Source of the DNA: a virus
DNA length: 36,215 nt
Virus record (IMG/VR): IMGVR_UViG_3300032304_002419
Location: 1-36,215 of that record
Direction: 5' to 3' (one strand)
Positions 6,858 through 36,023 of the stretch are shown one piece after another (positions within the stretch are counted from its first letter, which is position 1; the number at the start of each line of letters is the position of its first letter). The position numbers were made by a program, and so were the translations under genes. Below the pieces are notes generated by a model that was not told the DNA's origin, did no database searches, and saw only the letters and a program-made list of their open reading frames with translations.

Positions 6858-7812
6858 AAACCACTTTCATTTTATCTACTATTTCTTGTGGTAAAGACTC
6901 TAATCTCAAATCAACTAAAACCATATTTTCTTTAATTCTGGTTACTATTCTTGTAATATTAGATTTGGAAACTTTTTTCTTATCACAAATTATATCAGCA
7001 ATATTCTCAAATAAATCTGGATCACCAAGTGATGGATCACCAAACTCAGTATGATACTCTTCAAAAATACTTAAAGCACCCTTACTTCCAATGCCTCTGG
7101 TTTTACCATTTTTAGTTATTTGGAATACAGATTGAATATTATCACTCACGTCACCAGAAATAACTTTAATGATTAAAGATTGTAAAGAATCTATCTCATT
7201 TATTTGATATTTATTAATAAATCGATTGAATAATCTCAAGAAATCTGAGTTATCATTCAAATTAAATATATCATCATTCGGAATTTTATTTACCTTATCA
7301 ACAAATAATTGATAATTACTTGGTAAGAATAACTTTTCTTGATTATACATTTCATTAGTCATAAAATTAATCCAAAGAGGATCTAAACTAAATGATAGTA
7401 ATTGTTTGATATCATGATCGTTAGATATAATAACATTTGATTGTGACTTCTTATTAGATTCAGAAATGATTAAAGATATCCAATCATCTCCTTCAATACC
7501 AGGAGCTTCAAGTACTCTAATACCTTTTACATTAGATTTGAAGTCTTCATAAGTTTTATAAACAAAAGACCAATCAATATCAGAGTCTTTCTTTCGGTGT
7601 GACTTGTAGTCACCTAAGAGTTGTTTTCTCCAGGATTTCTCTTTAGAGTCTGATACTAAATAAACATTAGTAAAAGGATACCACTTTTTGTAGTTGGATA
7701 TGGTATTTTCAAGTGAATTGTAAAGAGCACCAAATAGAAGATTGTTTTTATGTAAAGTAAAAACTAATCTAGATAAAACGTAATTTCCATCGATTATTAA
7801 ATTTAATTGCAT
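6844..7812 (-). CDS. rnh: T4 RNase H-like 5'-3' exonuclease (FEN family)
   Basis: 322-aa flap-endonuclease-type nuclease that removes RNA primers during lagging-strand synthesis. Metal-binding acidic residues are visible in order: Asp8 in LIIDGNYVL, Asp55 with the arch residues SWRKQLLGDYKSHRKK (about 60-75), Glu107-Asp109-Asp110 in IEGDDWI, and Asp132/Asp134 in ISNDHDIKQL. The helix-3-turn-helix DNA-binding segment SGDVSDNIQSV...GIGSKGA follows. Length agrees with T4 RNase H (305 aa). It heads a minus operon of four overlapping genes and diverges from the 518-aa gene at 7.9 kb. Confidence 0.92.
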   Translation of the reverse strand: MQLNLIIDGNYVLSRLVFTLHKNNLLFGALYNSLENTISNYKKWYPFTNVYLVSDSKEKSWRKQLLGDYKSHRKKDSDIDWSFVYKTYEDFKSNVKGIRVLEAPGIEGDDWISLIISESNKKSQSNVIISNDHDIKQLLSFSLDPLWINFMTNEMYNQEKLFLPSNYQLFVDKVNKIPNDDIFNLNDNSDFLRLFNRFINKYQINEIDSLQSLIIKVISGDVSDNIQSVFQITKNGKTRGIGSKGALSIFEEYHTEFGDPSLGDPDLFENIADIICDKKKVSKSNITRIVTRIKENMVLVDLRLESLPQEIVDKMKVVYGRI

Positions 7813-11072: not shown

Positions 11073-11285
11073 CTAATCTTTAATAGAATCTTGATTGAAA
11101 GTGAATGCCATTTCTATAATAGAAATGACAGAAGCATCTGAATTTTTCTCACTAATAAAGTTTATATTCCGATCGTAAATATTTTCTTGTATAATTAAAC
11201 TTGGTGTAATTATTACAACTTCAAAAAGATTCTGAAAGACTGGATCCGGTAAAGTAGGCATCGTATGGTAGTGGGGTAAAGCCAT
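11073..11285 (-). CDS. 70-aa protein resembling the N-terminus of a phage tail-tube protein
   Basis: Begins MALPHYHTMPTLPDPVFQNL followed by FEVVIITP. A short N-terminal stretch ending in DPVFxNLFEV is how tail-tube proteins of the gp19 type often begin, so this may be a truncated or very small relative; the assignment is a resemblance only. It overlaps the last base of the topoisomerase fragment's stop (TAATG) and ends in TAG, after which the same frame stays open through AAT into the ATG of the frameshifted gene at 11069. A tail-protein fragment in a topoisomerase operon suggests rearrangement. Confidence 0.5.
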   Translation of the reverse strand: MALPHYHTMPTLPDPVFQNLFEVVIITPSLIIQENIYDRNINFISEKNSDASVISIIEMAFTFNQDSIKD

Positions 11286-12007
11286 TAATTTAATATTTGA
11301 TTTTTTCTTAACTCTGAATTCTTACCAAACCAAATATCTAAATATTCGTCTGATAAATCATCCTTAGTTATCAATGTTAATTTAGGCTTATTAATGATTT
11401 CATCATATTCATCATCAACAAGAGCTGCCAAACCTTTCTTATATTTTATTTCCCAACTTTGTAAATTCTCTTTAAGTGACCAAATATTGTATTCATTTTG
11501 TGTATAGAAAAGTATTTTCTTCTTTTTATCTTTCTTTGAAATAGCAACAACAATTGGTGTTTCGACTTTATAAACCATCTTTCTCTCAAATAATCCTGGC
11601 CAATATTTATTAAAAAAATTTAAGAGAAGGCCAACTATACTATTTCCATCGGTATCAGCGTCACAATAAAATAAAATTCTACCATATCTTAAATGTTTTA
11701 AATCAGGTTCTTGTCCTAATTTTAAACCAAGTGATGCTATTAAATTCACAGCCTCTTCATTTTGGACAAGCCTTTGATTACTCAACTCTGAAACATTGGT
11801 AAATTTACCTTTAAGTGCAAAAGCACCCATCAACTCAGGAACTCTATATTTTCTAAAAGCGGAAATAGCTGAATTATGAGAAACCAAACCATTACTAAGT
11901 AAAAAACTTTGATCAACATCAATTGATATATCAATCATATTAACATATTCATCAGATAATACTATGTCATCTATATCAACCAATTCTAAAAAATTCTCAA
12001 CTATCAT
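11285..12007 (-). CDS. Intein C-half fused to TOPRIM part of gp39/GyrB-like topoisomerase subunit
   Basis: Residues 1-45 are an intein C-terminal segment: block F-like MIDISIDVDQSFLLSNG and block G SHN ending at Asn45, followed by Ser46 as the +1 residue. From Ser46 the extein reads SAISAFRKYRVPELMGAFAL and carries the TOPRIM acidic motif FYCDADTDGNS (about residues 113-123), the Mg2+-binding DxDxDG site of type II topoisomerases. It would trans-splice with the N-half encoded at 13368-15116 to rebuild EGD-SAISAFR. It starts 1 base after the endonuclease gene stop. Without splicing, neither half is a working ATPase/TOPRIM subunit. Confidence 0.9.
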   Translation of the reverse strand: MIVENFLELVDIDDIVLSDEYVNMIDISIDVDQSFLLSNGLVSHNSAISAFRKYRVPELMGAFALKGKFTNVSELSNQRLVQNEEAVNLIASLGLKLGQEPDLKHLRYGRILFYCDADTDGNSIVGLLLNFFNKYWPGLFERKMVYKVETPIVVAISKKDKKKKILFYTQNEYNIWSLKENLQSWEIKYKKGLAALVDDEYDEIINKPKLTLITKDDLSDEYLDIWFGKNSELRKNQILN

Positions 12008-12008
12008 A

Positions 12009-13322
12009 TTATCCTATATTACTTTTTATAAAATTTAAACACTTATCATACTTATTAATATCATCTGACCATATTTCAAATACAGAAAAACCTTTATCAA
12101 CAGCCGTTTGTATTTTTATCTTTTGTCTATTATAAGCATCTTCCGAGGATAATTCTCTATTACAAGGATTTATCCAATCTGATTTTTCATTTTTAGGGTG
12201 GAAAATAACTCCATTATATTCTATAATTATTTTTTTACTTTTTATAGTAAAATCATAAAAGTATATATCATTACCATTTCTTAAAAAGTACTCACTCCTT
12301 TCACCAGATCCTATAAATATATCATCATATTTAATATCATATTCATTAATAATAGTTTCAATAATTGGATTAAATACTTTTAATGATTCTTTAGAAGCTA
12401 AACAAAATGGAACTGAGACTCTTATTCTCCAATTTTTATATTTCTCAGTAGCTATTTTCATATCACCATATTTCTTAAAAAGATTACCAATTGTAATACC
12501 TTTTGACTTATTTATTTCTTCCTTGTTTGGATTATTATTAAAATTTATTCTATATTTATCAACTCTATCTTTATGTTTTTGCATAGCTACATCATATCCA
12601 TACTTATTAATAAAATTCTCAACCGAAACATTAACAGATTTCTTTCTTTCTTCATATTCAAATATAGCTTTATCATAATCACCACTATTCTTTTTTATAA
12701 ATGAATCCAAAGACATTGAATCTTTTTTATAAGAAATATCATTAAACATCTTTCTACCCAATTCTTCACCATATTTATCAACATAACCTTCTTCACTATT
12801 AGCAATTGATATTTTACCAACATGTTTATTATACTTATCATTACCCAATTCAATACCATATTTACCTATATAATATTCAATAGATCTGGATTGTGATTTT
12901 TTATACAAATCATCTGATTTATGATTTTCTTTATAAAAAGGACTTTTATTATTCTCTTTTAAAAGAATTTTGGCATCCTCAATTGATATGTTATTAATTT
13001 TTGATAAAAACTCAAATGAATTTGGGTTCATTTTAATACCATCACATTCACAATTATCTCCATAACAATACACTTTCTTTTTAAAGGAAAAGTCTTTGAT
13101 TTTAATAAAATTATCAACTATTTCAAAATTTATATCCAATGGTGGATTACCAACCTTACATATTCTACATTTTTCACTATCAATATTCTTATAAGTTAAA
13201 TAATCATTAATACTTATACCTAGTTTTCTTTTCAAGGAAATATAAAATGCTGGTTGTATTTTATTATTAGTACATCCAAATTCATAAATTCTATTATTAT
13301 AATCATATTTTATCTTTCTCAT
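12009..13322 (-). CDS. Homing endonuclease between split-intein halves (EDxHD/Vsr-like PD-(D/E)XK)
   Basis: 437 aa from ATG 13322, which follows TAATATATA and CTCT; a TTG at 13343 with an AAGGAG before it is an alternative start. Repeated (K)YGxELGxxKYN units fill the middle (about residues 150-290), like the RYG repeats of other phage endonucleases. The C-terminal YFYDFTIKSKKIIIEYNG followed by an HPKNE...RQKIK...FEIWSDD arrangement fits a Vsr-like nuclease core. Endonucleases of this kind between fractured-gene halves were described with split inteins in marine metagenomes (Dassa and co-workers). The frame is continuous with the intein N-half upstream except for the TAG at 13368-13370. It probably drives homing into intein-free topoisomerase genes. 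Confidence 0.82.
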   Translation of the reverse strand: MRKIKYDYNNRIYEFGCTNNKIQPAFYISLKRKLGISINDYLTYKNIDSEKCRICKVGNPPLDINFEIVDNFIKIKDFSFKKKVYCYGDNCECDGIKMNPNSFEFLSKINNISIEDAKILLKENNKSPFYKENHKSDDLYKKSQSRSIEYYIGKYGIELGNDKYNKHVGKISIANSEEGYVDKYGEELGRKMFNDISYKKDSMSLDSFIKKNSGDYDKAIFEYEERKKSVNVSVENFINKYGYDVAMQKHKDRVDKYRINFNNNPNKEEINKSKGITIGNLFKKYGDMKIATEKYKNWRIRVSVPFCLASKESLKVFNPIIETIINEYDIKYDDIFIGSGERSEYFLRNGNDIYFYDFTIKSKKIIIEYNGVIFHPKNEKSDWINPCNRELSSEDAYNRQKIKIQTAVDKGFSVFEIWSDDINKYDKCLNFIKSNIG

Positions 13323-13326
13323 AGAG

Positions 13327-13335
13327 TATATATTA
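13327..13335 (-). promoter_or_regulatory. TAATATATA element before the intein-associated endonuclease
   Basis: TAATATATA on the minus strand with CTCT between it and ATG 13322. This favours the ATG as the start and gives the endonuclease gene an independent start signal within the fractured topoisomerase locus. Confidence 0.5.
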
Positions 13336-13367
13336 AATACCAAGATTCTCCTTATTTGAAGGTGATA

Positions 13368-15116
13368 CTACAATTTGAAGGTATTAACTAATAGATGAAT
13401 ATTAAAATCGATATTTTTAGATTCTATCATTTCAAACTTATTAGAATCCTTATTATAAATGGCAAATTTATGATCAGGATTAGTAATAATTGATTCACCT
13501 GACATTAGGGTAATACTATACTCATCACTTTTTATTATAGGTAAAAGTGAATCAGTAAATGCTAAATAATTTTTAACTAGCTTATGCTTTAGTTTATTTA
13601 TATTATTAGTTACTTCAAAATAAAATTCGTTCTTTTCAATGTCATAAACAAACCATTTGTGAGTATGACTGCAAATAATATCTTCATTTTTTATTTTAAT
13701 AGTTGCTTTCTTTTTAATCTTTTTAGTTAAAGCATAGACATTAGATATTGTATTATTATGTGTTATGACAAGATCATCAATTTTAACATCCTTTATCTTT
13801 TTATCAACAATATCACCATCATCAATTATTCTTATATTAGTATCTTCATGAAGACAATCACCTTCAAAGATTCCAATGGAACACTTCCATCTATCTTTCC
13901 CTTTAGCATCAATTAACTTTTCGACTTTAATTTTAGCCAAATTCTTATTTAACTCACGAGCCAATTTAGACTCATCAGCTAGTTTCTTCTGATTAACCCA
14001 ATCAAGAATAGAATCGACTATCTCCGATTTAAGAATAGATTGTATTAATTTATCACTTACTATAAATTCTGTCCCAAAATCCTTTACTTCGGTTATTAAT
14101 TTTTCTTTAGTCTGTGAATTAAAACTAGGATTAATAACTTCTGAATCTAAAAATATCATCATGTGGTTTTTCAATTCCGATGGCTTAACATCCACTTTAT
14201 GTTTTCTCTGAAAGAATTCTCTCATTTTAGATAGAATCTGATTTAAAATATAATCAACATGATTTCCACCATCAGTAGTCGAGGCTCCATTAGCAAATGA
14301 GATTTGACGGAATCCATTATCACTTGGTGCAACTGCCAATTTCCAACGGTGTTTGGTTGTTTCAAATATAGGAGAAGTGGTATATAATTTTACATAGTCT
14401 TGAAATGTAGGAACATCTATCCTTTCATCATTAAAATAAAATTTAATGTGTGGATTAATTCCAGCTAAATCTAAAGTTCTTTTATAAATCAGAGAATAAT
14501 GGATTTCGTCTATATCAGTTAAAGTTAAACGTTCAAAGTCGGTTAGAAATTTAATCTCAGTATGATTAGATCTACTAATAGAAATTTTAGGTTTAGTTTT
14601 TTCAGACATATTATTCTTAAATTCCTGATAGAAACTTTTCTTACCATCACAAGATGATACTATAAACTCTTTTGAGAATAAATTTACTAAGACACTTCCC
14701 AATCCATTAGTACCAACTACGATCCTATCATCTGAATCATCAAAGTTTGACCCAGCTCGGAGAGATGAGAAAACCATCTCAGCTACATATTGATTCTTAT
14801 CTTTGTGAATCACGGTAGGAATTCCACCATTATCCCAAACTGAAATATAGTTATCCTTAACACTAACCTTGATCATATTAAGTTTAGAACCTATCCTTTT
14901 CGACTCATCTACTGAATTGGAGATTATCTCATCAAATAATTTCAGGAATGCTGGTAGATACTCAATATCTTTAAGTATCATTTTATTATCCTCATATAAC
15001 CACATTTCTGAAACCTGTTTCTTTACAGAACCTAGATACATACCTGGTTTCCGTAGTACATGTTCCTCTGGCGTTAACTCTTTCCAGATTTCTTCTACTT
15101 TTTTAGATTTACTCAT
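13368..15116 (-). CDS. gp39/GyrB-like topoisomerase N-terminal part fused to intein N-half
   Basis: Residues 1-420 are the GHKL ATPase and transducer of a T4-type topoisomerase II large subunit: Glu63 and Asn67 in FDEIISNSVDES, DNGGIP (95-100), VVGTNGLG (133-140, ATP lid), and QTKEKL (335-340). The extein stops at SIGIFEGD (413-420), exactly at the TOPRIM catalytic Glu-Gly-Asp. Cys421 then starts an intein (CLHEDTNIRIIDDGDIV, block A), with ICSHTHKWFV (481-490) as block B and a second block-B-like ITNPDHKFAIYN (544-555). The intein N-half is about 162 residues, long for a split intein, and ends at a TAG. A CATATATAAAG element precedes the ATG. It partners the gp52-like subunit. Confidence 0.9.
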   Translation of the reverse strand: MSKSKKVEEIWKELTPEEHVLRKPGMYLGSVKKQVSEMWLYEDNKMILKDIEYLPAFLKLFDEIISNSVDESKRIGSKLNMIKVSVKDNYISVWDNGGIPTVIHKDKNQYVAEMVFSSLRAGSNFDDSDDRIVVGTNGLGSVLVNLFSKEFIVSSCDGKKSFYQEFKNNMSEKTKPKISISRSNHTEIKFLTDFERLTLTDIDEIHYSLIYKRTLDLAGINPHIKFYFNDERIDVPTFQDYVKLYTTSPIFETTKHRWKLAVAPSDNGFRQISFANGASTTDGGNHVDYILNQILSKMREFFQRKHKVDVKPSELKNHMMIFLDSEVINPSFNSQTKEKLITEVKDFGTEFIVSDKLIQSILKSEIVDSILDWVNQKKLADESKLARELNKNLAKIKVEKLIDAKGKDRWKCSIGIFEGDCLHEDTNIRIIDDGDIVDKKIKDVKIDDLVITHNNTISNVYALTKKIKKKATIKIKNEDIICSHTHKWFVYDIEKNEFYFEVTNNINKLKHKLVKNYLAFTDSLLPIIKSDEYSITLMSGESIITNPDHKFAIYNKDSNKFEMIESKNIDFNIHLLVNTFKL

Positions 15117-30622: not shown

Positions 30623-30755
30623 CATATAACGGTTGAGAATATAAGTAGTAACCGATTTGAAAAAAGAAACTTAAAATTAAAGATAAATGTTAAACAAAAG
30701 TAGTAACTTAAATAAACCACATAACTCGGTTATTACTTATATTCTTTGTTATGTG
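30623..30755 (+). repeat. attC-like site A (133 bp)
   Basis: CATATAAC at the left and GTTATGTG at the right are the outer pair. The inner arms GAATATAAGTAGTAACCGA (30637-30655) and TCGGTTATTACTTATATTC pair over 19 positions with one G.T wobble on this strand. The loop of about 70 nt is A-rich. The first 63 bases recur in site G. It separates cassette genes 1 and 2. Confidence 0.85.
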
Positions 30756-30765
30756 TAGTTTTATT

Positions 30766-30963
30766 ATGAAAAAATGGAATAAATTTGAGAAGATTAAACC
30801 TATTGAAAGCGACTATCCAATCGTGGTAGTTTCAAAAAGGGAAAGTAAAAACAGAACTGCTTATAATATACAAGTTGTTCTTGAGGAAAGTTTGATACAT
30901 CTAAGTAAAAGACACAGTTCTGTTTTTACAAAATGGTTGAAACTACCTGATTATATGGATTAA
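30766..30963 (+). CDS. Cassette 2 protein, 65 aa
   Basis: Small basic protein from ATG 30766 (MKKWNKFEKIKPIESDYPIV); an in-frame ATG at 30751 lies inside the R' box of site A and would add five residues. It has a beta-strand pair (IVVVSKRESKNRTAYNIQVV) and a C-terminal WLKLPDYMD. No known family. The unit ends match exactly: GTTATGTGTA at the 5' end and TACACATAAC at the 3' end. Confidence 0.55.
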   Translation: MKKWNKFEKIKPIESDYPIVVVSKRESKNRTAYNIQVVLEESLIHLSKRHSSVFTKWLKLPDYMD

Positions 30964-30968
30964 AATTA

Positions 30969-31025
30969 CACATAACGGTTTGCGTATAAAAAATCGTTTT
31001 AATGTTTTTTATACGCTGTTATCAG
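30969..31025 (+). repeat. attC-like site B (57 bp, shortest)
   Basis: CATAAC and GTTATC form the outer pair. Inner arms GCGTATAAAAAA (30982-30993) and TTTTTTATACGC (31005-31016) are perfectly complementary around an 11-nt loop. The spacer is GGTTT on the left and T on the right. It ends cassette 2 and precedes the methyltransferase cassette. Confidence 0.85.
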
Positions 31026-31116
31026 TAGTACGGTAATTAACCACAAATGCTCAATCGGAGAACTGAACCTTTTTCTTTTCTTTTTTGTGTGGTGGGAAAA
31101 ATATTAAAATAAAATT

Positions 31117-31905
31117 ATGACAATAGATTTAAGATTCGGAGATACAATAAAGCAAATGAAATTGATACCTGATAAAAGCATTGACTTTATTTGCTGTGAT
31201 TTACCTTACGGAACGACTGCATGTTCGTGGGATGTGGTTATTCCATTTGATGAATTGTGGAAACAATACAATAGAATAATTAAAGATAATGGAGCAATAG
31301 CATTGTTTGGTAATGAACCTTTTAGTTCCACACTTAGAATTAGTAATTTAAAAAATTATAAGTATGATATTATTTGGCAAAAAGAAAAACCAACAAACCC
31401 ATTTACTATTAAAAAACAATTTGGAAAGGTTCATGAAAATATATCAATATTTTATAAGAAAACACCAACTTATAACCCACAAATGAGTAAACGTGATAAT
31501 GTTACAAATCCCAAACCAATGAAAGGTGATTTGAATATTGATGAAACTAATGTTATAAGCGGTGTTTATAAACATTCAGAAGATTATAACCCATATTTAG
31601 TATATCCAATATCAGTTCAAAAATTTAATAGAGATAGTAAAAAAGGTGTTGAAAAACTACATCCAACACAAAAACCGTTATTATTGATAGAACTTTTGGT
31701 AAAGACTTATTCAAATGAGAATGATATTGTTTTAGACAACACTTTTGGAAGTTGCACCACAGGAATTGCTTGTATAAACACCAATAGAAGCTTTATCGGA
31801 ATTGAGAATAATATGGATTATTTTAATATTTCTTTAAAGAGGGTGGAAGAAAAAAGAAAAGAAAAAGAATTTAACGTAGTAACTTCATTCGGAGATGGAA
31901 TGTAG
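31117..31905 (+). CDS. DNA methyltransferase (N6-adenine/N4-cytosine type), cassette 3
   Basis: 262 aa. The catalytic DLPYGTTACSWD (residues 28-39) corresponds to the DPPY motif IV, and the AdoMet-binding FxGxG-like motif appears near the C-terminus as DNTFGSCTTGIACINTNR, after HPTQKPLLLIELLVKTYS. This order (motif IV before motif I) is the beta-class arrangement. It methylates DNA adenine-N6 or cytosine-N4 at a specific sequence; no restriction partner is present, so it likely protects phage DNA or marks it. The 5' leader shares TGTGTGGTGG with the cassette at 33.4 kb. It is the only array gene with a clear enzyme identity. Stop is TAG. Confidence 0.93.
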   Translation: MTIDLRFGDTIKQMKLIPDKSIDFICCDLPYGTTACSWDVVIPFDELWKQYNRIIKDNGAIALFGNEPFSSTLRISNLKNYKYDIIWQKEKPTNPFTIKKQFGKVHENISIFYKKTPTYNPQMSKRDNVTNPKPMKGDLNIDETNVISGVYKHSEDYNPYLVYPISVQKFNRDSKKGVEKLHPTQKPLLLIELLVKTYSNENDIVLDNTFGSCTTGIACINTNRSFIGIENNMDYFNISLKRVEEKRKEKEFNVVTSFGDGM

Positions 31906-31910
31906 TATTA

Positions 31911-32044
31911 CTGCTAACGTCCGCAGGTATATTTCAGTTGCGGAATATGAAGTATATAATAATCAGATTAGTAATAACTTAAATACGAGAACAAATGACA
32001 AAAGAAACACAAAAACCGCAATTGAATATACCTGTTGTTAGCGT
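31911..32044 (+). repeat. attC-like site C, with start codon of next gene in its loop
   Basis: Outer pair GCTAAC (31913-31918) and GTTAGC (32037-32042). Arms CAGGTATATTTCAGTTGCGG and CCGCAATTGAATATACCTG pair with one extrahelical T and one G.T wobble. The ATG of the next gene (31995) lies in the loop, and the right arm is translated. Confidence 0.85.
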
Positions 32045-32195
32045 GAGTGATATTCATTCATTTTTAGAATGGTTAAATAATCAACAAAAAGATTATATGA
32101 GTGGTGAATTTCTATATGATGTGAAAGGTTATTACAAACGCTTAAAGCAAGGAGAAATGTTTGATTATTGGTTAGAACGTGTTCATTCACGCTAA
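31995..32195 (+). CDS. Cassette 4 protein, 66 aa, N-terminus encoded by attC-like site C
   Basis: MTKETQKPQLNIPVVSVSDI: the first 16 codons come from the loop and right arm of site C, with PQLNIPVV encoded by the arm itself. The body (HSFLEWLNNQQKDYMSGEFL, YYKRLKQGEMFDYWLERVHS) is a small helical domain. The TAA stop is part of the R'' box (CGCTAAC) of site D, so both ends of the gene are formed by recombination sites. The unit ends match over ten bases (GTTAGCGTGA and TCACGCTAAC). Function unknown. Confidence 0.6.
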   Translation: MTKETQKPQLNIPVVSVSDIHSFLEWLNNQQKDYMSGEFLYDVKGYYKRLKQGEMFDYWLERVHSR

Positions 32196-32324
32196 CGATA
32201 CTCAGATATATTTAGGTTTTCTTTTTAATATATACTAAAAACTAATTTACGAAGATGAAAGATTTAAAACACATTAAAAGATTTAACGAACATCAAGAAA
32301 ACTTGAATATATCTGATGTTAGTG
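32190..32324 (+). repeat. attC-like site D, with phage motif and start codon in its loop
   Basis: Outer pair GCTAAC (32191-32196) and GTTAGT (32318-32323). Arms CAGATATATTTAGGTTTTC and GAAAACTTGAATATATCTG pair over 19 positions with two G.T wobbles. The loop contains TAATATATA (32226-32234) and the ATG (32255) of the next gene, whose N-terminus reads through the right arm. Confidence 0.8.
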
Positions 32325-32566
32325 ATAGTAAATTTGAAATAATAGGTCCAGATATGGATGAGATTTTGGATGGTATAAACTTTATCAATCAAAATTATGA
32401 TGATTCTGTTAAATTAAAACCTATGGATTGGTCACTATTAGTTTCAGATAACTATTCCATTTTTGTGAAATTTGAACCAGAGGGTGATGAAAATAGACAC
32501 ATCAGATTTATGAATGAAATGTTATCTGAAAATAATTTTGATTGTAAGTTATATAAGACTAAATAA
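32255..32566 (+). CDS. Cassette 5 protein, 103 aa, with KHIKRFNEHQE start from site D
   Basis: MKDLKHIKRFNEHQENLNIS: the first 22 codons lie in site D, so the capsid-targeting-like KRFNE is supplied by the recombination site rather than by the mobile unit body. After the GTT core the cassette proper encodes an acidic alpha/beta domain (FEIIGPDMDEILDGINFINQ, WSLLVSDNYSIFVKFEPEGD). Unit ends match over GTTAGTGATA. Family unknown. Confidence 0.65.
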   Translation: MKDLKHIKRFNEHQENLNISDVSDSKFEIIGPDMDEILDGINFINQNYDDSVKLKPMDWSLLVSDNYSIFVKFEPEGDENRHIRFMNEMLSENNFDCKLYKTK

Positions 32567-32580
32567 TTCAAATTTATTAT

Positions 32581-32675
32581 CACTAACGGTTGGGTGTATA
32601 TGTAGGTTTTTTAATTAAAATTTAATATATACTACAAAACTAAATAAAAAACTTACATATACACCTTGTTATGTG
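32581..32675 (+). repeat. attC-like site E, with phage motif in its loop
   Basis: Outer pair CACTAAC and GTTATGTG; arms GGTGTATATGTAGGTTTTTT and AAAAAACTTACATATACACC pair over 20 positions with one G.T wobble. The loop carries TAATATATA (32623-32631), followed by CTACAAAAC, similar to the site D loop. Confidence 0.88.
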
Positions 32676-32698
32676 TAAAAAAAAATTAAGACAACAAT

Positions 32699-32965
32699 AT
32701 GAAACACGTTAAACGATTTAATGAAAATACAGAAACACTTAAAATTTTTATAGTTTTATACTGGTTTTGGGAAGGTGACGGATATTTAGTAAATGAATAT
32801 AAAGATTGTTTCTTAACAGAAGATGATGCTTTTTCATTTGCTAACACACTAAAATATGGTGGTAAAACTATAAAAATTTATCACCCGGATGAAGATATAC
32901 CAGATGAAGGTGATGGTGGATATGGAACTTCTGCTTTCGTTCAAATAGTTAAGAAAGTGTTTTAA
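32699..32965 (+). CDS. Cassette 6 protein, 88 aa, with MKHVKRFNENTE start
   Basis: The N-terminus MKHVKRFNENTETLK carries the capsid-targeting-like motif, here encoded outside the attC-like site. The body is aromatic-rich and acidic (FIVLYWFWEGDGYLVNEYKD, YHPDEDIPDEGDGGYGTSAF). Site E upstream carries TAATATATA 67 bp before the ATG. Unit ends match over GTTATGTGTAA. No family recognised. Confidence 0.65.
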   Translation: MKHVKRFNENTETLKIFIVLYWFWEGDGYLVNEYKDCFLTEDDAFSFANTLKYGGKTIKIYHPDEDIPDEGDGGYGTSAFVQIVKKVF

Positions 32966-32975
32966 TTTTTTATTA

Positions 32976-33099
32976 CACATAACGGTTGCAGGTATATGCA
33001 GTTGTTTAACACAAAATTAAATTAAAAGATATGATTGAGAGATTAACAGATTGGCTTATTAAAAGGAGAATGAAACAATTGCATATACCTGTTGTTATG
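32976..33099 (+). repeat. attC-like site F, with start codon of next gene in its loop
   Basis: Outer pair ACATAAC and GTTATGG. Arms CAGGTATATGCAGTTGTTT and AAACAATTGCATATACCTG pair over 19 positions with one G.T wobble. The ATG at 33031 is in the loop, and the arm is translated as KQLHIPVV. Arms resemble those of site C. Confidence 0.86.
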
Positions 33100-33264
33100 G
33101 GTAGTGCTACTCCGAGAGATGAATTTAAGAGAGTATTAAACACTTTCCGTGAAAATAAGGTAATGGTAGATACAAGAGAAGATGGTATCTATATACGAAT
33201 GGCTGGAACAGAAAGCAAAGGAGAGTGTTTTACTTACGAATGGGCAAAGGTTAAATCTTTTTAG
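33031..33264 (+). CDS. Cassette 7 protein, 77 aa, N-terminus encoded by site F
   Basis: MIERLTDWLIKRRMKQLHIP: the first 23 codons lie in the loop and right arm of site F, with QLHIPVV echoing the QLNIPVV of cassette 4. The body after the GTT core is a small beta domain (VMVDTREDGIYIRMAGTESK). The donated segment is an amphipathic basic helix. Stop is TAG. Function unknown. Confidence 0.55.
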   Translation: MIERLTDWLIKRRMKQLHIPVVMGSATPRDEFKRVLNTFRENKVMVDTREDGIYIRMAGTESKGECFTYEWAKVKSF

Positions 33265-33270
33265 CATTAC

Positions 33271-33337
33271 GCATAACGGTTGAGAATATAAGTAGTAACC
33301 GATTTGAAAAAAGAAACTTAAAATTAAAGATAAATGG
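33271..33337 (+). repeat. Truncated attC-like site G (left half only)
   Basis: From GCATAACGGTTGAG this matches site A for about 60 bases, but the complementary right arm and the GTTA box are missing. The sequence instead continues directly into the leader of the next gene. The 5' end of that cassette appears deleted together with the right arm. Confidence 0.75.
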
Positions 33338-33435
33338 TAGAATGTTTGTTTGGAACACGAATAAAAACTTTTTAATAATGTGTGGTGGAAATATTAATTT
33401 TGAATATTTATATATAAAGTAAACTATTTATTAAT

Positions 33436-33912
33436 ATGGAACAAGATAAAAAACTAAAGAACTTCATTAAAACTACAATTAGAGAGTTTTTGAATAAACA
33501 ACAAATCAATGAAATATCATCAGATACATTTAAAAGTGCTATAAATGTATCAAAAGAACGTGGTACTGACAGACGAACATATAAATTAGGTGAACTATAT
33601 CTACATAAATTTATAGGTAAAGATTTGATTGGTGGTAAGATAACCAATATTGGTGTTCAGAGTCCACAACAGGGTAATTATAGAAATGTAGCTATAGAAG
33701 TTACTAAAAGTGTTTATCAAGATAGTGGTTATAATAAAGGTGAAAACAAACTTGTGAAAGACTATATCTATTATGATATAGATAAAGATATATATGATGT
33801 GGATGAAATTGACAGGAAAGATGCTGTTGTTTTATCGAAAATAGCACAAAATATTAATCCCGAAACAAAATACAAGGAAACTGGTAAATATTTTCAAATA
33901 AAGGGTTGGTAA
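33436..33912 (+). CDS. Cassette 8 protein, 158 aa, FIKTTIREFLNKQ start
   Basis: MEQDKKLKNFIKTTIREFLN is nearly the same as the start of the frameshifted gene at 35573, and their leaders are also similar, but the bodies differ. The body (YKLGELYLHKFIGKDLIGGK, a strand-rich region, and DYIYYDIDKDIYDVDEIDRK) has no known domain. The N-terminal amphipathic helix is of the type found on many short phage proteins. The leader has AAAAACTTTTTAATAAT and the 3' tail the inverse ATTTTTAAAAAGTTTTT. Confidence 0.7.
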   Translation: MEQDKKLKNFIKTTIREFLNKQQINEISSDTFKSAINVSKERGTDRRTYKLGELYLHKFIGKDLIGGKITNIGVQSPQQGNYRNVAIEVTKSVYQDSGYNKGENKLVKDYIYYDIDKDIYDVDEIDRKDAVVLSKIAQNINPETKYKETGKYFQIKGW

Positions 33913-33967
33913 ATTTTTAAAAAGTTTTTATCATTGAACTTAATTTGAAATACAAATGTAGTATTGT

Positions 33968-34053
33968 GTATAACGGTTGCAAATTTGAGAAGTAAATTTT
34001 ACCTATAAAAATTAGATAAATCAAAATTTATTTCTTATATTTGTTGTTATAAA
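33968..34053 (+). repeat. attC-like site H
   Basis: Outer pair GTATAAC and GTTATAAA; arms CAAATTTGAGAAGTAAATTTT and AAAATTTATTTCTTATATTTG pair with two G.T wobbles and one T.T mismatch. The right arm contains TATATTTG, a match to the Bacteroidota TAnnTTTG box, though no -33 TTG is at the right distance. Confidence 0.82.
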
Positions 34054-34074
34054 TATGTAAATTAAATTTTACCT

Positions 34075-34263
34075 ATGGAAAATAAACATGAATTGGAAAG
34101 CACGTTGGTAAATTTGAAAGAATTTAGAGAAGCGTTAGATAATTTTGAAGCACCAGAAAACTTAGGTGGATGGTCGTTATCAAATTTACCAACACATTTT
34201 TGGGAAACACTTGGTGAATGTATTAACGATATTGAACACTATATTAAAACTCATAAAATTTAA
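34075..34263 (+). CDS. Cassette 9 protein, 62 aa
   Basis: MENKHELESTLVNLKEFREA: a small acidic, helical protein with GGWSLSNLPTHFWETLGECI in its second half. No family recognised. The unit ends match over GTTATAAA. It starts 22 bases after site H. Confidence 0.55.
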   Translation: MENKHELESTLVNLKEFREALDNFEAPENLGGWSLSNLPTHFWETLGECINDIEHYIKTHKI

Positions 34264-34270
34264 TTTATTG

Positions 34271-34368
34271 TTTATAACGATTGGGTGTATGAAACGTAAC
34301 CTAACCACGAACTTTGAAATTAACCACTGAATTATAATAGGTTATGTTTTATACACCTTGTTATACAC
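34271..34368 (+). repeat. attC-like site I
   Basis: Outer pair TATAAC and GTTATAC; arms GGTGTATGAAACGTAACCTA and TAGGTTATGTTTTATACACC pair over 20 positions with two G.T wobbles. The left spacer is GATTG. Confidence 0.88.
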
Positions 34369-34400
34369 AGTGCGGATTATTAACTTAAAACTTAAATAAA

Positions 34401-34709
34401 ATGGAAATTGAAACAGAAGGAATTAAAATTAAATTTGATGATGGTACTGAATATAGATTACCAGACATCTCTTATGAAAAATTTACAGAACACATGTTTA
34501 AAAGTGGTGGTTCTGATGTAGAATACGATAAATATTGTAGAGAAAACAATATGAAAGAATTAACAAACTTTAACGGTGAATCAACTGGTGAAATTACATT
34601 AATAGTAGAACAACCATATAGAGGACGTGTTCTTAAATTTAGATGTATCTATGATTCAGATAACGATGAAAATTTTAATGAGGTCAGTTATTTTGGAATG
34701 GATATTTAG
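34401..34709 (+). CDS. Cassette 10 protein, 102 aa
   Basis: MEIETEGIKIKFDDGTEYRL: an acidic, strand-rich protein with KFTEHMFKSGGSDVEYDKYC in the middle and a second beta segment (GEITLIVEQPYRGRVLKFRC). The overall pattern suggests a small beta-barrel-like domain, but no family is recognised. Stop is TAG. Unit ends match over GTTATACACA. Confidence 0.6.
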   Translation: MEIETEGIKIKFDDGTEYRLPDISYEKFTEHMFKSGGSDVEYDKYCRENNMKELTNFNGESTGEITLIVEQPYRGRVLKFRCIYDSDNDENFNEVSYFGMDI

Positions 34710-34713
34710 CATT

Positions 34714-34811
34714 GTGTATAACGGTTGGGTGTATGAGAAGGTTTTTTATTTGGAAATCTCGAAATTTATACCTACCTTTGTAAAAAACTTTCTTATACAC
34801 CTTGTTATAAG
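34714..34811 (+). repeat. attC-like site J, with a Bacteroidota-type promoter in its loop
   Basis: Outer pair TATAAC (34717-34722) and GTTATA; arms GGTGTATGAGAAGGTTTTTTA and TAAAAAACTTTCTTATACACC pair over 21 positions with two G.T wobbles. The loop holds TTG (34750-34752), 20 bases, then TACCTTTG (34773-34780). Confidence 0.9.
34750..34780 (+). promoter_or_regulatory. Bacteroidota-type promoter (TTG-N20-TAnnTTTG) inside site J
   Basis: TTG at 34750-34752 and TACCTTTG at 34773-34780 match the -33/-7 consensus of Bacteroidota vegetative promoters, with a 20-nt spacer. It would drive the 72-aa cassette gene at 34852 and overlaps the hairpin's right arm. Confidence 0.6.
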
Positions 34812-34851
34812 TATGTATTATTTTTGTTTTACCTATTAAAAAATATAAATT

Positions 34852-35070
34852 ATGGAAGAAGTAGTAAAAAATATGTTGAAATATGCGGAGATTGTTTCAG
34901 TTTTAGAACAGAACAACATTTCGTGGAATGGATTGGTTGATGGTTTGGTAGAAACTTATCACAATGATAATCCAGAGTATAAACTGAAACAAAATCCAGA
35001 TTGGTGGAATATTGGAAGTAAAGAAGAAGTTATTGATAGTGTTATATCAACATTCTCAAAACAAAAATAA
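34852..35070 (+). CDS. Cassette 11 protein, 72 aa
   Basis: MEEVVKNMLKYAEIVSVLEQ: an acidic helical protein with NNISWNGLVDGLVETYHNDN and a C-terminal GSKEEVIDSVISTFSKQK. No family recognised. Transcription from the promoter in site J, 72 bp upstream, is plausible. Unit ends match over GTTATAAGTA. Confidence 0.55.
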   Translation: MEEVVKNMLKYAEIVSVLEQNNISWNGLVDGLVETYHNDNPEYKLKQNPDWWNIGSKEEVIDSVISTFSKQK

Positions 35071-35076
35071 TATTAC

Positions 35077-35211
35077 TTATAACGTTATGGCGGTTGGCGT
35101 TCGTTGCCGACTTTGGAACACAAATCTTTCACTTAAAAAATAAATTTGATATGGAAAACAATACTTCAATAAACCGAGAAAACAGCAATGGCGCTAACCG
35201 CTTGTTATATG
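35077..35211 (+). repeat. attC-like site K (GC-richer), with start codon of next gene in its loop
   Basis: Outer pair TTATAAC and GTTATAT. Arms GCGGTTGGCG...GTTGC and GCAATGGCGCTAACCGC pair with several G.T wobbles and one bulge. The site is GC-richer than the others. The ATG at 35151 and about 18 codons of the next gene lie inside it. Confidence 0.78.
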
Positions 35212-35360
35212 CTGTGCCACCTGAACGCACAATGGAATTGTGTAAAGCTGTTTTAGACTACTTAGGCAGTAGATTGAACCAAGATATTGAACCAAAACCA
35301 AGTCTAAACAGCGTTGCTTGTCTTGCTGCCGATATTATGAAAGAGCTTCGTAAGGCATAG
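35151..35360 (+). CDS. Cassette 12 protein, 69 aa, NGANRLLYAVPPERT N-terminus
   Basis: MENNTSINRENSNGANRLLY: the leader is encoded by site K and reads through the arm as GANRLLYAV into the cassette proper. I recall similar NGANRLL starts on small hypothetical proteins of bacterial cassette arrays. The body is one helical domain (MELCKAVLDYLGSRLNQDIE, SVACLAADIMKELRKA). The frame through the GTTA core differs from that used in sites C, D and F. Stop is TAG. Unit ends match over 14 of 15 bases. Confidence 0.6.
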   Translation: MENNTSINRENSNGANRLLYAVPPERTMELCKAVLDYLGSRLNQDIEPKPSLNSVACLAADIMKELRKA

Positions 35361-35457
35361 CATATAACGGTTGGGTGTATGAGAAGGTTTGCTTAGATGA
35401 ACTTTCAAATTACCACAACTGCTGATAGCAAACTTTCTTATACACCTTGTTATACAC
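35361..35457 (+). repeat. attC-like site L
   Basis: Outer pair CATATAAC and GTTATACA; arms GGTGTATGAGAAGGTTTGCT and AGCAAACTTTCTTATACACC pair over 20 positions with two G.T wobbles. Left spacer GGTTG, right spacer TT. The best-formed example of the main site type (also E, I, J). Confidence 0.9.
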
Positions 35458-35572
35458 AGTACGGTTTATTAAGGTAGTATGTTTATTTGGAACACGGATA
35501 AAAACTTTTTAAAAATGTGTGGAAGAAAATTTAAAATTGACTATTTATATATAAGATAAATTATTTATTAAT

Positions 35573-36023
35573 ATGGAAAAAGACACTAAAATAAGAAACT
35601 TCATTAAAACTAGAATAAGAGAGTTTTTGAATGAACAGAAATTAATGGAAAATGATAAACCACCAATGATGGGAACTCAATATAATCAAATTAAGGTTTT
35701 ATATAATTTAACAAATGATGATTTTTCTTATGTACCATCAAGTGTAAATTATTGGAGTATAAACACTGATAATACATTAATTAATAACTGGACACTACGG
35801 TAAAAATGATGAAGAAGAATATCAAAGAACGATTAAAAATTTAGATTTTTTCTTTATATATTATAACGGAAAACAATATGTTTATCAAAGACATTATAAA
35901 ACGCTGAAAGATAAGCACGACAATAAGATAAAATCGTCAGAACAATCCGATATATTCAACTTGCAAATGAATGAAATTATAAACAAAACTTTAAATCCAA
36001 CAAAACCTATTGAAGTTTTTTAA
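35573..36023 (+). pseudogene. Cassette 13 gene, frameshifted; N-terminus like cassette 8
   Basis: The first frame gives 76 residues (MEKDTKIRNFIKTRIREFLN ... YWSINTDNTLINNWTLR) and stops at 35801. From about 35790 the +1 frame is open and reads GHYGKNDEEEYQRTIKNLDF and continues (YYNGKQYVYQRHYKT) to TAA 36021-36023. A one-base indel around 35785-35795 would restore about 150 residues, close to the 158 of its N-terminal relative at 33436. Either a true mutation, a sequencing error, or programmed frameshifting; I favour one of the first two. The leader and 3' tail match cassette 8. Confidence 0.65.

Follow-up and report, generated by a model that had tools for sequence, protein, structure and literature searches.

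The stretch of DNA analyzed here (the window) is an IMG/VR virus record of 36,215 bases (IMGVR_UViG_3300032304_002419), a fragment that looks like part of a large tailed phage, judging from topoisomerase, DnaK, GrpE and DnaJ genes named from their sequence. Starting near 30.6 kb and continuing to its right end, the window has small genes separated by imperfect palindromes with AAC/GTT boxes, and this region appears to be a cassette array of integron-like type in a phage of the Bacteroidota type. The annotated phage records closest to the window are those of Flavobacterium and Polaribacter phages, with Polaribacter phage P12002L among its matches. The palindromes exhibit the hallmarks of integron attC sites, namely R''/R' (AAC..GTT) and L''/L' boxes and, as marks distinguishing the strands, conserved G.T/A.C mispairs. 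Two kinds of module may be seen to alternate along the array: hairpins, which run from AAC through stem, loop and stem to GTT, and bodies, each framed by a pair of inverted boxes, 5' GTT... and 3' ...AAC. In four hairpins, referred to as C, D, F and K, the loop and right stem would carry a start codon and 10–30 codons, here called a head, which continue in a fixed phase through GTT, so that the encoded protein would consist of head plus body.

All features of the array given here lie on the + strand. Hairpin C (31919–32036; stem CAGGTATATT..CAGTTGCGG / CCGCAATTGAATATACCTG) contains head C (31995–32036), which starts with the ATG at 31995, reads MTKETQKPQLNIPV followed by V and crosses the junction in phase 0, with the GTT at 32037 as a codon; this head type recurs before several other bodies. 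The adjoining unit C (32037–32196) has the R' box GTTAGCGTGAGTGA, its own R'' box GTTAGCGTGAATGA as the reverse complement, and an open reading frame (ORF) to 32195. Hairpin D (32197–32317) holds a conserved TTTTTAATATATAC element, the start codon and head D (32255–32317; ATG 32255, MKDLKHIKRFNEHQENLNISD followed by V, phase 0, GTT 32318), and leads into unit D (32318–32587; ORF to 32566; R' GTTAGTGATAGTAA, R'' GTTAGTGATAATAA), of which a contiguous homologue exists in the viral contig L221. Hairpin F (32985–33093; stem CAGGTATATGCA) contains head F (33031–33093; ATG 33031, MIERLTDWLIKRRMKQLHIPV followed by V, phase 0, GTT 33094) and precedes unit F (33094–33277; ORF to 33264, with an alternative ATG at 33097). 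The exact F head was seen only in this window, its arm class, ..QLDIPV followed by V, being shared with five other bodies. Finally, hairpin K (35084–35203; stem GGCGGTTGGCG / CGCTAACCGC) contains head K (35151–35204; ATG 35151, MENNTSINRENSNGANRL followed by LY), which passes the GTT at 35204 in another phase (TTG followed by TTA) into unit K (35204–35368; ORF to 35360; R' GTTATATGCTGTGC, R'' GTTATATGCTATGC as the reverse complement).

A preliminary description of the window had placed the start codons of C, D, F and K within the hairpin loops, with frames that continue across the right stem and the GTT box to enter the following unit, one frame being shared by C, D and F and another used by K; all of this, including the coordinates and peptides, is borne out. 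It had also let cassette C take its stop codon from site D. The TAA (32193–32195) is indeed part of the terminal TAACG, but this box is the cassette's own 3' end.

Recurrence of the heads and exchange at the junction

The arm of hairpin D (TTGAATATATCTGATGTTA) was found at 69 sites in viral contigs, where it is open in the same frame in every case and followed by 62 distinct body starts. Nearly all of these sites have an ATG, two showing none in the available sequence, and the bodies stay open for up to 220 codons, while other frames usually close early. The heads at these sites are about 11–28 codons long and varied in sequence (MKDLKHIKRFNESEEN-, MSKEMRQHIDKFNKFKLTESEN-, MIEEKEYLKAKQIVQEYEKQ-LNISD). 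The C/F arm class occurs at twelve further loci, mostly with ETQKPQLNIPV- or QLDIPV-type heads and with differing bodies, and near relatives of head K (MENNTSINHENGNDANRL) stand before three further bodies, with unchanged phase. The exact K arm found no match, and K is confirmed via protein search only; for the complete C and F proteins the viral contigs gave no close relatives, so that C and F rest on their hairpin class. In annotated phage records the D, C and K hairpins are absent, except for one match of 27 nucleotides, and neither Pfam nor PHROGs assigns a function to the headed proteins.

As a control, the distinct hairpins of the common type (TTATACACCnTGTTA) were considered: in none of 51 does the best ORF cross GTT, and the genes that follow have their own ATG 19–176 nucleotides further on. 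A rigid pattern for such common hairpins had no matches in 32 contigs. In cellular genomes the combined arm pattern gave 69 matches, mostly by chance; only 14 of them have an upstream ATG and 30 open codons, and about five are genuine, mostly in small metagenome contigs. With so few genuine cellular matches, headed hairpins of these types look phage-specific.

For a wider survey, units of the form GTTA...TAAC with matching ends were collected, which yielded 373 distinct units; on reversed sequence of the same loci the unit finder returned 11 instead of 208. Both the finder and the identity thresholds were tuned on these arrays. In detail, 166 units are headed, a share inflated by the fact that many loci were fetched via head arms, 188 have their own ATG (median 42 nucleotides past GTT) and 19 are unclear. 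The headed units fall into the three phases with 122, 35 and 9 members, the last being mostly spurious. In 85 of the 373 units the stop codon lies inside the unit's own terminal TAAC, as in unit C. One headed methyltransferase unit lies in the Flavobacterium phage mymlan6-1 (QHB40088.1; L008, 550–1324), with the head MQKSLFENEMLNIVQKPTLHK and the body from VSRSTFF on, in an array of five units.

Two observations place a recombination border between hairpin and body. First, in the D- and C-type units the 7 bases past GTT agree at 5.69 of 7 positions on average (shuffled 3.53 +/- 0.17) with the 3' box of the same unit, read as its reverse complement, but show no match to the box that precedes the hairpin (3.21 versus 2.99, p = 0.08). 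Second, one and the same body can follow two heads: the body VSGSFNRFEEFF... is 99.5% identical over its full length in L043, where it stands behind the head MKDNKIKRFNENSELNISD, and in L042, L059 and L071, where the head is MEEDKKLEQNLDKSNKKLHISD. Two more pairs of bodies behind different heads have nucleotide identities of 87.6% and 77%, and protein comparison adds others. A body shared behind different heads implies that N-termini have been exchanged exactly at GTT. The preliminary description had predicted such reshuffling and proposed to compare the cassettes found after different sites in related phages; that comparison favours its fusion reading, the same heads (D, C type and K) preceding unrelated bodies in frame and the same body occurring behind different heads.

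Recombinase, strand polarity and the extent of a cassette

A tyrosine recombinase, about 265 amino acids long where intact, is encoded in 16 of the 32 D-bearing contigs, usually 0.2–3.5 kb downstream of a D-type site and on the same strand. Its best NCBIfam match is the XerA-type family NF040815 (195 bits, cut-off 220), and it scores 158–171 bits, in two stretches, against the integron integrase model TIGR02249, which is below the cut-off of 265. It has 34 residues where IntI4 has 82, and in the relatives in which this was looked at the additional segment of IntI is absent. Between the last unit and the recombinase, TAACTATnnTATAT is conserved in 13 of the 16 contigs (e.g. L221, L222, L225, L226, L229, L230 and L232), with 26 copies across all 32 contigs, and this element is a putative attI-like site. 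In L220 (3234–3956, with the same ORF in L078) a truncated, recombinase-like ORF (241 amino acids) is joined to a D-type head.

The arrays are strongly polar. The units of 14 fetched arrays are located as follows: 65 upstream of the recombinase, 12 downstream of it (all in a single contig) and 4 on the opposite strand. Gene orientation is locked to box polarity (356 versus 17). Stem imperfections are mostly G.T on the coding strand (518 versus 120; in the R boxes 48 versus 1, mainly at position 11), indicating that the coding strand folds better. At position 11 of the R box nearly every unit has G at the 5' end and A, read as the reverse complement, at the 3' end (e.g. 32318–32331 versus 32574–32587), a coding-strand G.T mispair that could distinguish the strands. 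Seen on the template strand, the arrangement would correspond to an integron layout, with a divergent integrase, attI and cassettes with a distal hairpin, in which the genes face the integrase.

To judge which hairpin travels with a gene, like units from separate locations were compared in 21 pairs. Of these, 20 have unlike 3' hairpins and 13 have unlike 5' hairpins, while random hairpins look alike in 2–3%. Among pairs with at least 95% identity, 5 of 8 have the same 5' hairpin; at 85–95% this holds for 3 of 11 and below that for neither of two, although these numbers are small and some shared 5' flanks reflect similar D heads or plain synteny. In two pairs of near-identical units (u21 and u68) the 5' hairpin is shared exactly from TAACG onward while the 3' hairpin differs. 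These pairs, together with the attI-like site that relatives with the recombinase have at the 3' end of the array, and with genes pointing to it, lead us to regard the hairpin as probably belonging, as the 5' part, to the cassette of the gene that it starts, and not as a gift from the preceding one. The preliminary description had called the start codon donated to the next cassette; the hairpins are clearly exchangeable, but each more likely forms the 5' end of the cassette whose gene it starts.

An ordinary integron, in which every hairpin is the attC of the preceding cassette and a start codon is donated forward at each insertion, would explain why heads end exactly at G^TT with various bodies behind them, and one pair (u9) does keep its 3' hairpin while differing in the 5' one. 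It is nevertheless unlikely, and was dropped as the main model, in view of the 3' hairpins that fail to agree in 20 pairs, the stretches shared from TAACG on with the 5' hairpin included and the recombinase and attI-like site at the 3' end; in addition, the better-folding strand is the coding strand. An attC at the 3' end of the gene, a defining trait of integron cassettes, is not what the pairs show. We consider equally improbable that the mobile parts are selfish hairpins copied between R boxes by gene conversion or homologous recombination, with no cassette reaction of a tyrosine recombinase. Identical hairpin types at many places and the 12 of 21 pairs in which the same body has different hairpins on both sides would fit such copying; yet like bodies in different arrays have different neighbours, so that bodies must have moved too, their ends are inverted boxes with the conserved asymmetry expected of recombinase sites, and the arrays come with a recombinase and an attI-like site.

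Probable translation of the heads and other genes of the window

Over the first 15 codons of the body, an ATG is missing from 110 of 158 headed units, and in 73 neither ATG nor GTG nor TTG occurs. In unit D of the window the first ATG of the body comes only at codon 13, past a stretch conserved in the L221 homologue, and this homologue, which has no hairpin, starts with a contiguous N-terminus (MKRLKYIKRFNESNEMDIEIELIGPD) similar to the hairpin head. In F, which has an ATG right after GTT (33097), and in C, which has a GTG at 32043, translation may start either in the hairpin or in the body. Across 28 D heads the ratio of nonsynonymous to synonymous polymorphism (pN/pS) is 0.59 in frame and 0.77 and 0.74 in the shifted frames, with codon position two varying least. 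Several signal peptides and lipoboxes are split by the GTT junction, as in MKHNFSITALTLAFASLL followed by LVAGCSS and MSNRKTNGFFAYVL followed by LAVVLSSCGEE. Initiation at the hairpin ATG is strongly implied by these sequences. That the crossing frames are a by-product of stem constraint and AT-richness, with translation beginning inside the bodies, could draw on the starts just past GTT in F and C and on the part of the conserved peptide (LNISD, NIPV) that is encoded by the stem, but is very improbable given that D arms stay in frame at all 69 sites despite very different head lengths while the other hairpin class does so in none of 51, that 73 headed units have no usable start early in the body, that loop codons are constrained in frame and signal peptides split, and that the L221 homologue has a similar N-terminus without a hairpin.

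The loops of D-type hairpins have a conserved TTTTTAATATATAC element, which may be promoter-like; among the loops of the 158 headed units, T(A)ATATATA occurs in 36 (3.5 after shuffling). Apart from the start codon, the heads supply N-termini that are charged, secretory or lipoprotein-like, or KxIKxFNE-like, the last resembling the N-termini of other proteins of this phage (e.g. 15199–15675 and 32699–32965). Many proteins of the phage start with a short aromatic and lysine-rich motif ending in F..E (MKHLRGFNES, MKINKYIEFINED; genes at 7807, 15199, 18151, 21172, 25313, 30275 and 32699), which is similar to some heads and loosely like the capsid targeting sequence of T4. Another shared N-terminus, outside any hairpin, is found in the repeats 33336–33514 and 35473–35651, which are 83% identical and comprise the leader and N-terminus (..NFIKT.IREFLN..) of two genes that differ in the rest.

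Hairpin A (30628–30747; stem AGAATATAAGTA) has no head and is followed by unit A (30748–30976), a body between inverted R boxes identified ab initio by the unit finder. Unit B (31018–31918) encodes an N6/N4 DNA methyltransferase with its own ATG (31117–31905) and has an 84% identical counterpart in mymlan6-1; the blastn match (31017–31920) extends from one GTT to the next TAACG, and the flanking hairpins differ from those of the window on both sides. Hairpin E (32588–32667) has no head either, and unit E (32668–32984; R' GTTATGTGTAAAAA, R'' GTTATGTGTAATAA) carries a gene with its own ATG at 32699 (MKHVKRFNENTE...). Stretches resembling TTGGGTAAATTTTTAAAAAGTTTTT are repeated at gene ends directly before R'' boxes (30561, 33905 and 36028). 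Scans of the window revealed no known RNA family of Rfam and no tRNA. Outside the array, the topoisomerase gene (11285–15116, minus strand) looks interrupted by an intein. Another ORF (12009–13343) separates the two intein halves, which points to a split intein that has taken up an endonuclease-like gene.

A model of the array and its relation to known systems

The best overall explanation, to which we assign a probability of roughly 80%, is an integron-like array in which headed hairpins encode N-termini and exchange is driven by a recombinase. It starts from what the comparisons above display, that is an open frame across the junction, heads recurring with unrelated bodies, bodies with different heads and the co-inheritance of body ends. 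Ribosomes would start at the hairpin ATG. The hairpins would be recombined, as folded single strands, by a tyrosine recombinase of XerA/IntI-like type whose gene lies at the array's 3' end, with the main crossover at the AAC box next to the attI-like TAACTATnnTATAT, and a cassette would normally comprise 5' hairpin and body, its gene pointing toward the integrase. Exchange at the other box (GTT) would separate head from body and thereby swap N-termini. In attC sites, recombination of top-strand hairpins can shift to the R'' box (PMC2727003), which makes both borders plausible.

Several points weigh against this explanation. Hairpin and body are separated frequently (13 of 21 pairs), for which a simple cassette of 5' hairpin plus body needs a second type of crossover or gene conversion, and the u9 pair follows the classical pattern. 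The window is a fragment that ends before any recombinase, and the contigs compared are mostly from uncultured sources and partly redundant. Bodies starting with VM, such as that of F and others, could use their own ATG, the pN/pS of such short heads is only moderately low, and both translation and recombination are deduced from sequence alone.

Integrons and clusters of attC sites lacking integron-integrases (CALINs) have been described in virulent phages, including Polaribacter phage P12002L with methyltransferase cassettes (Qi et al. 2023, PMC9892861), where start codons and translation are not mentioned. With these the present arrays have in common small genes, imperfect palindromes with GTT/AAC boxes, a tyrosine recombinase, a putative attI-like site and methyltransferase cargo. 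They differ in a recombinase that is under the IntI cut-off and lacks the extra segment between conserved blocks, in genes that face the integrase, and in a hairpin that is 5' of the gene and encodes its N-terminus, the 3' hairpin not being kept. As two defining features, an IntI-type integrase and a 3' attC, were not found, we regard the system as a variant of the integron kind and not as an integron proper.

In class 1 integrons, short ORFs of attI1, ORF-11 and ORF-18, help translation (PMC8876359). There too a site of recombination contains a start for ribosomes together with an ORF that overlaps the crossover; but this is one fixed attI, whose peptide usually ends at the TAG in GTTAG and acts by translational coupling, whereas here many cassette hairpins give in-frame N-termini kept in the protein, the heads reading through GTT for the whole body with no stop at the junction. 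The 'reverse' integron of Treponema denticola likewise has integrase and cassette genes in the same direction. Its first cassettes were amplified from intI through attI to attC and have their stops at the attC R box (PMC4909258), which places attC 3' of the genes, unlike the present case, with an array on the 5' side of the recombinase and hairpins that precede their genes. The capsid targeting sequence of T4, through which a protein is packaged in the prohead and which the prohead protease cuts, is a short N-terminal tag of which 10 residues suffice and which can precede unrelated proteins (PMC9026906). The D-type heads (K.IKRFNE) and their likeness to N-termini of other proteins of this phage recall it in layout only, as seen in sequence, and the KxIKxFNE-like heads might, as no more than a working hypothesis, serve like the T4 tag to target proteins to the capsid.

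Shufflons and recombining hsdS genes swap protein ends by site-specific recombination within coding sequence. They invert or exchange segments of one gene, whereas here unrelated bodies receive interchangeable N-termini. In the open-access literature no description of cassette hairpins encoding N-termini was found.

The recombination site of known integrons is regarded as non-coding, or as carrying at most a short coupling ORF in attI, while here the site would itself be part of the protein. Such genes would be overlooked, or given a wrong start, by gene finders and integron tools. The hairpin 5' of integrase-facing genes offers a test case for the evolution of strand choice and crossover position, and a headed gene in the cultured Flavobacterium phage mymlan6-1 makes the system directly testable. 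A start codon, and possibly a promoter, borne by the hairpin would solve the expression of captured genes and make their N-termini interchangeable. It is tempting to go further, though we hold this only tentatively and at somewhat less than even odds, and to suppose two independently exchangeable modules, coding hairpins with promoter, start and a targeting or secretion N-terminus on the one hand and phase-matched headless bodies on the other, which build new tagged proteins by combination. If so, one effector could gain different destinations, such as the capsid, the membrane or the cytoplasm.

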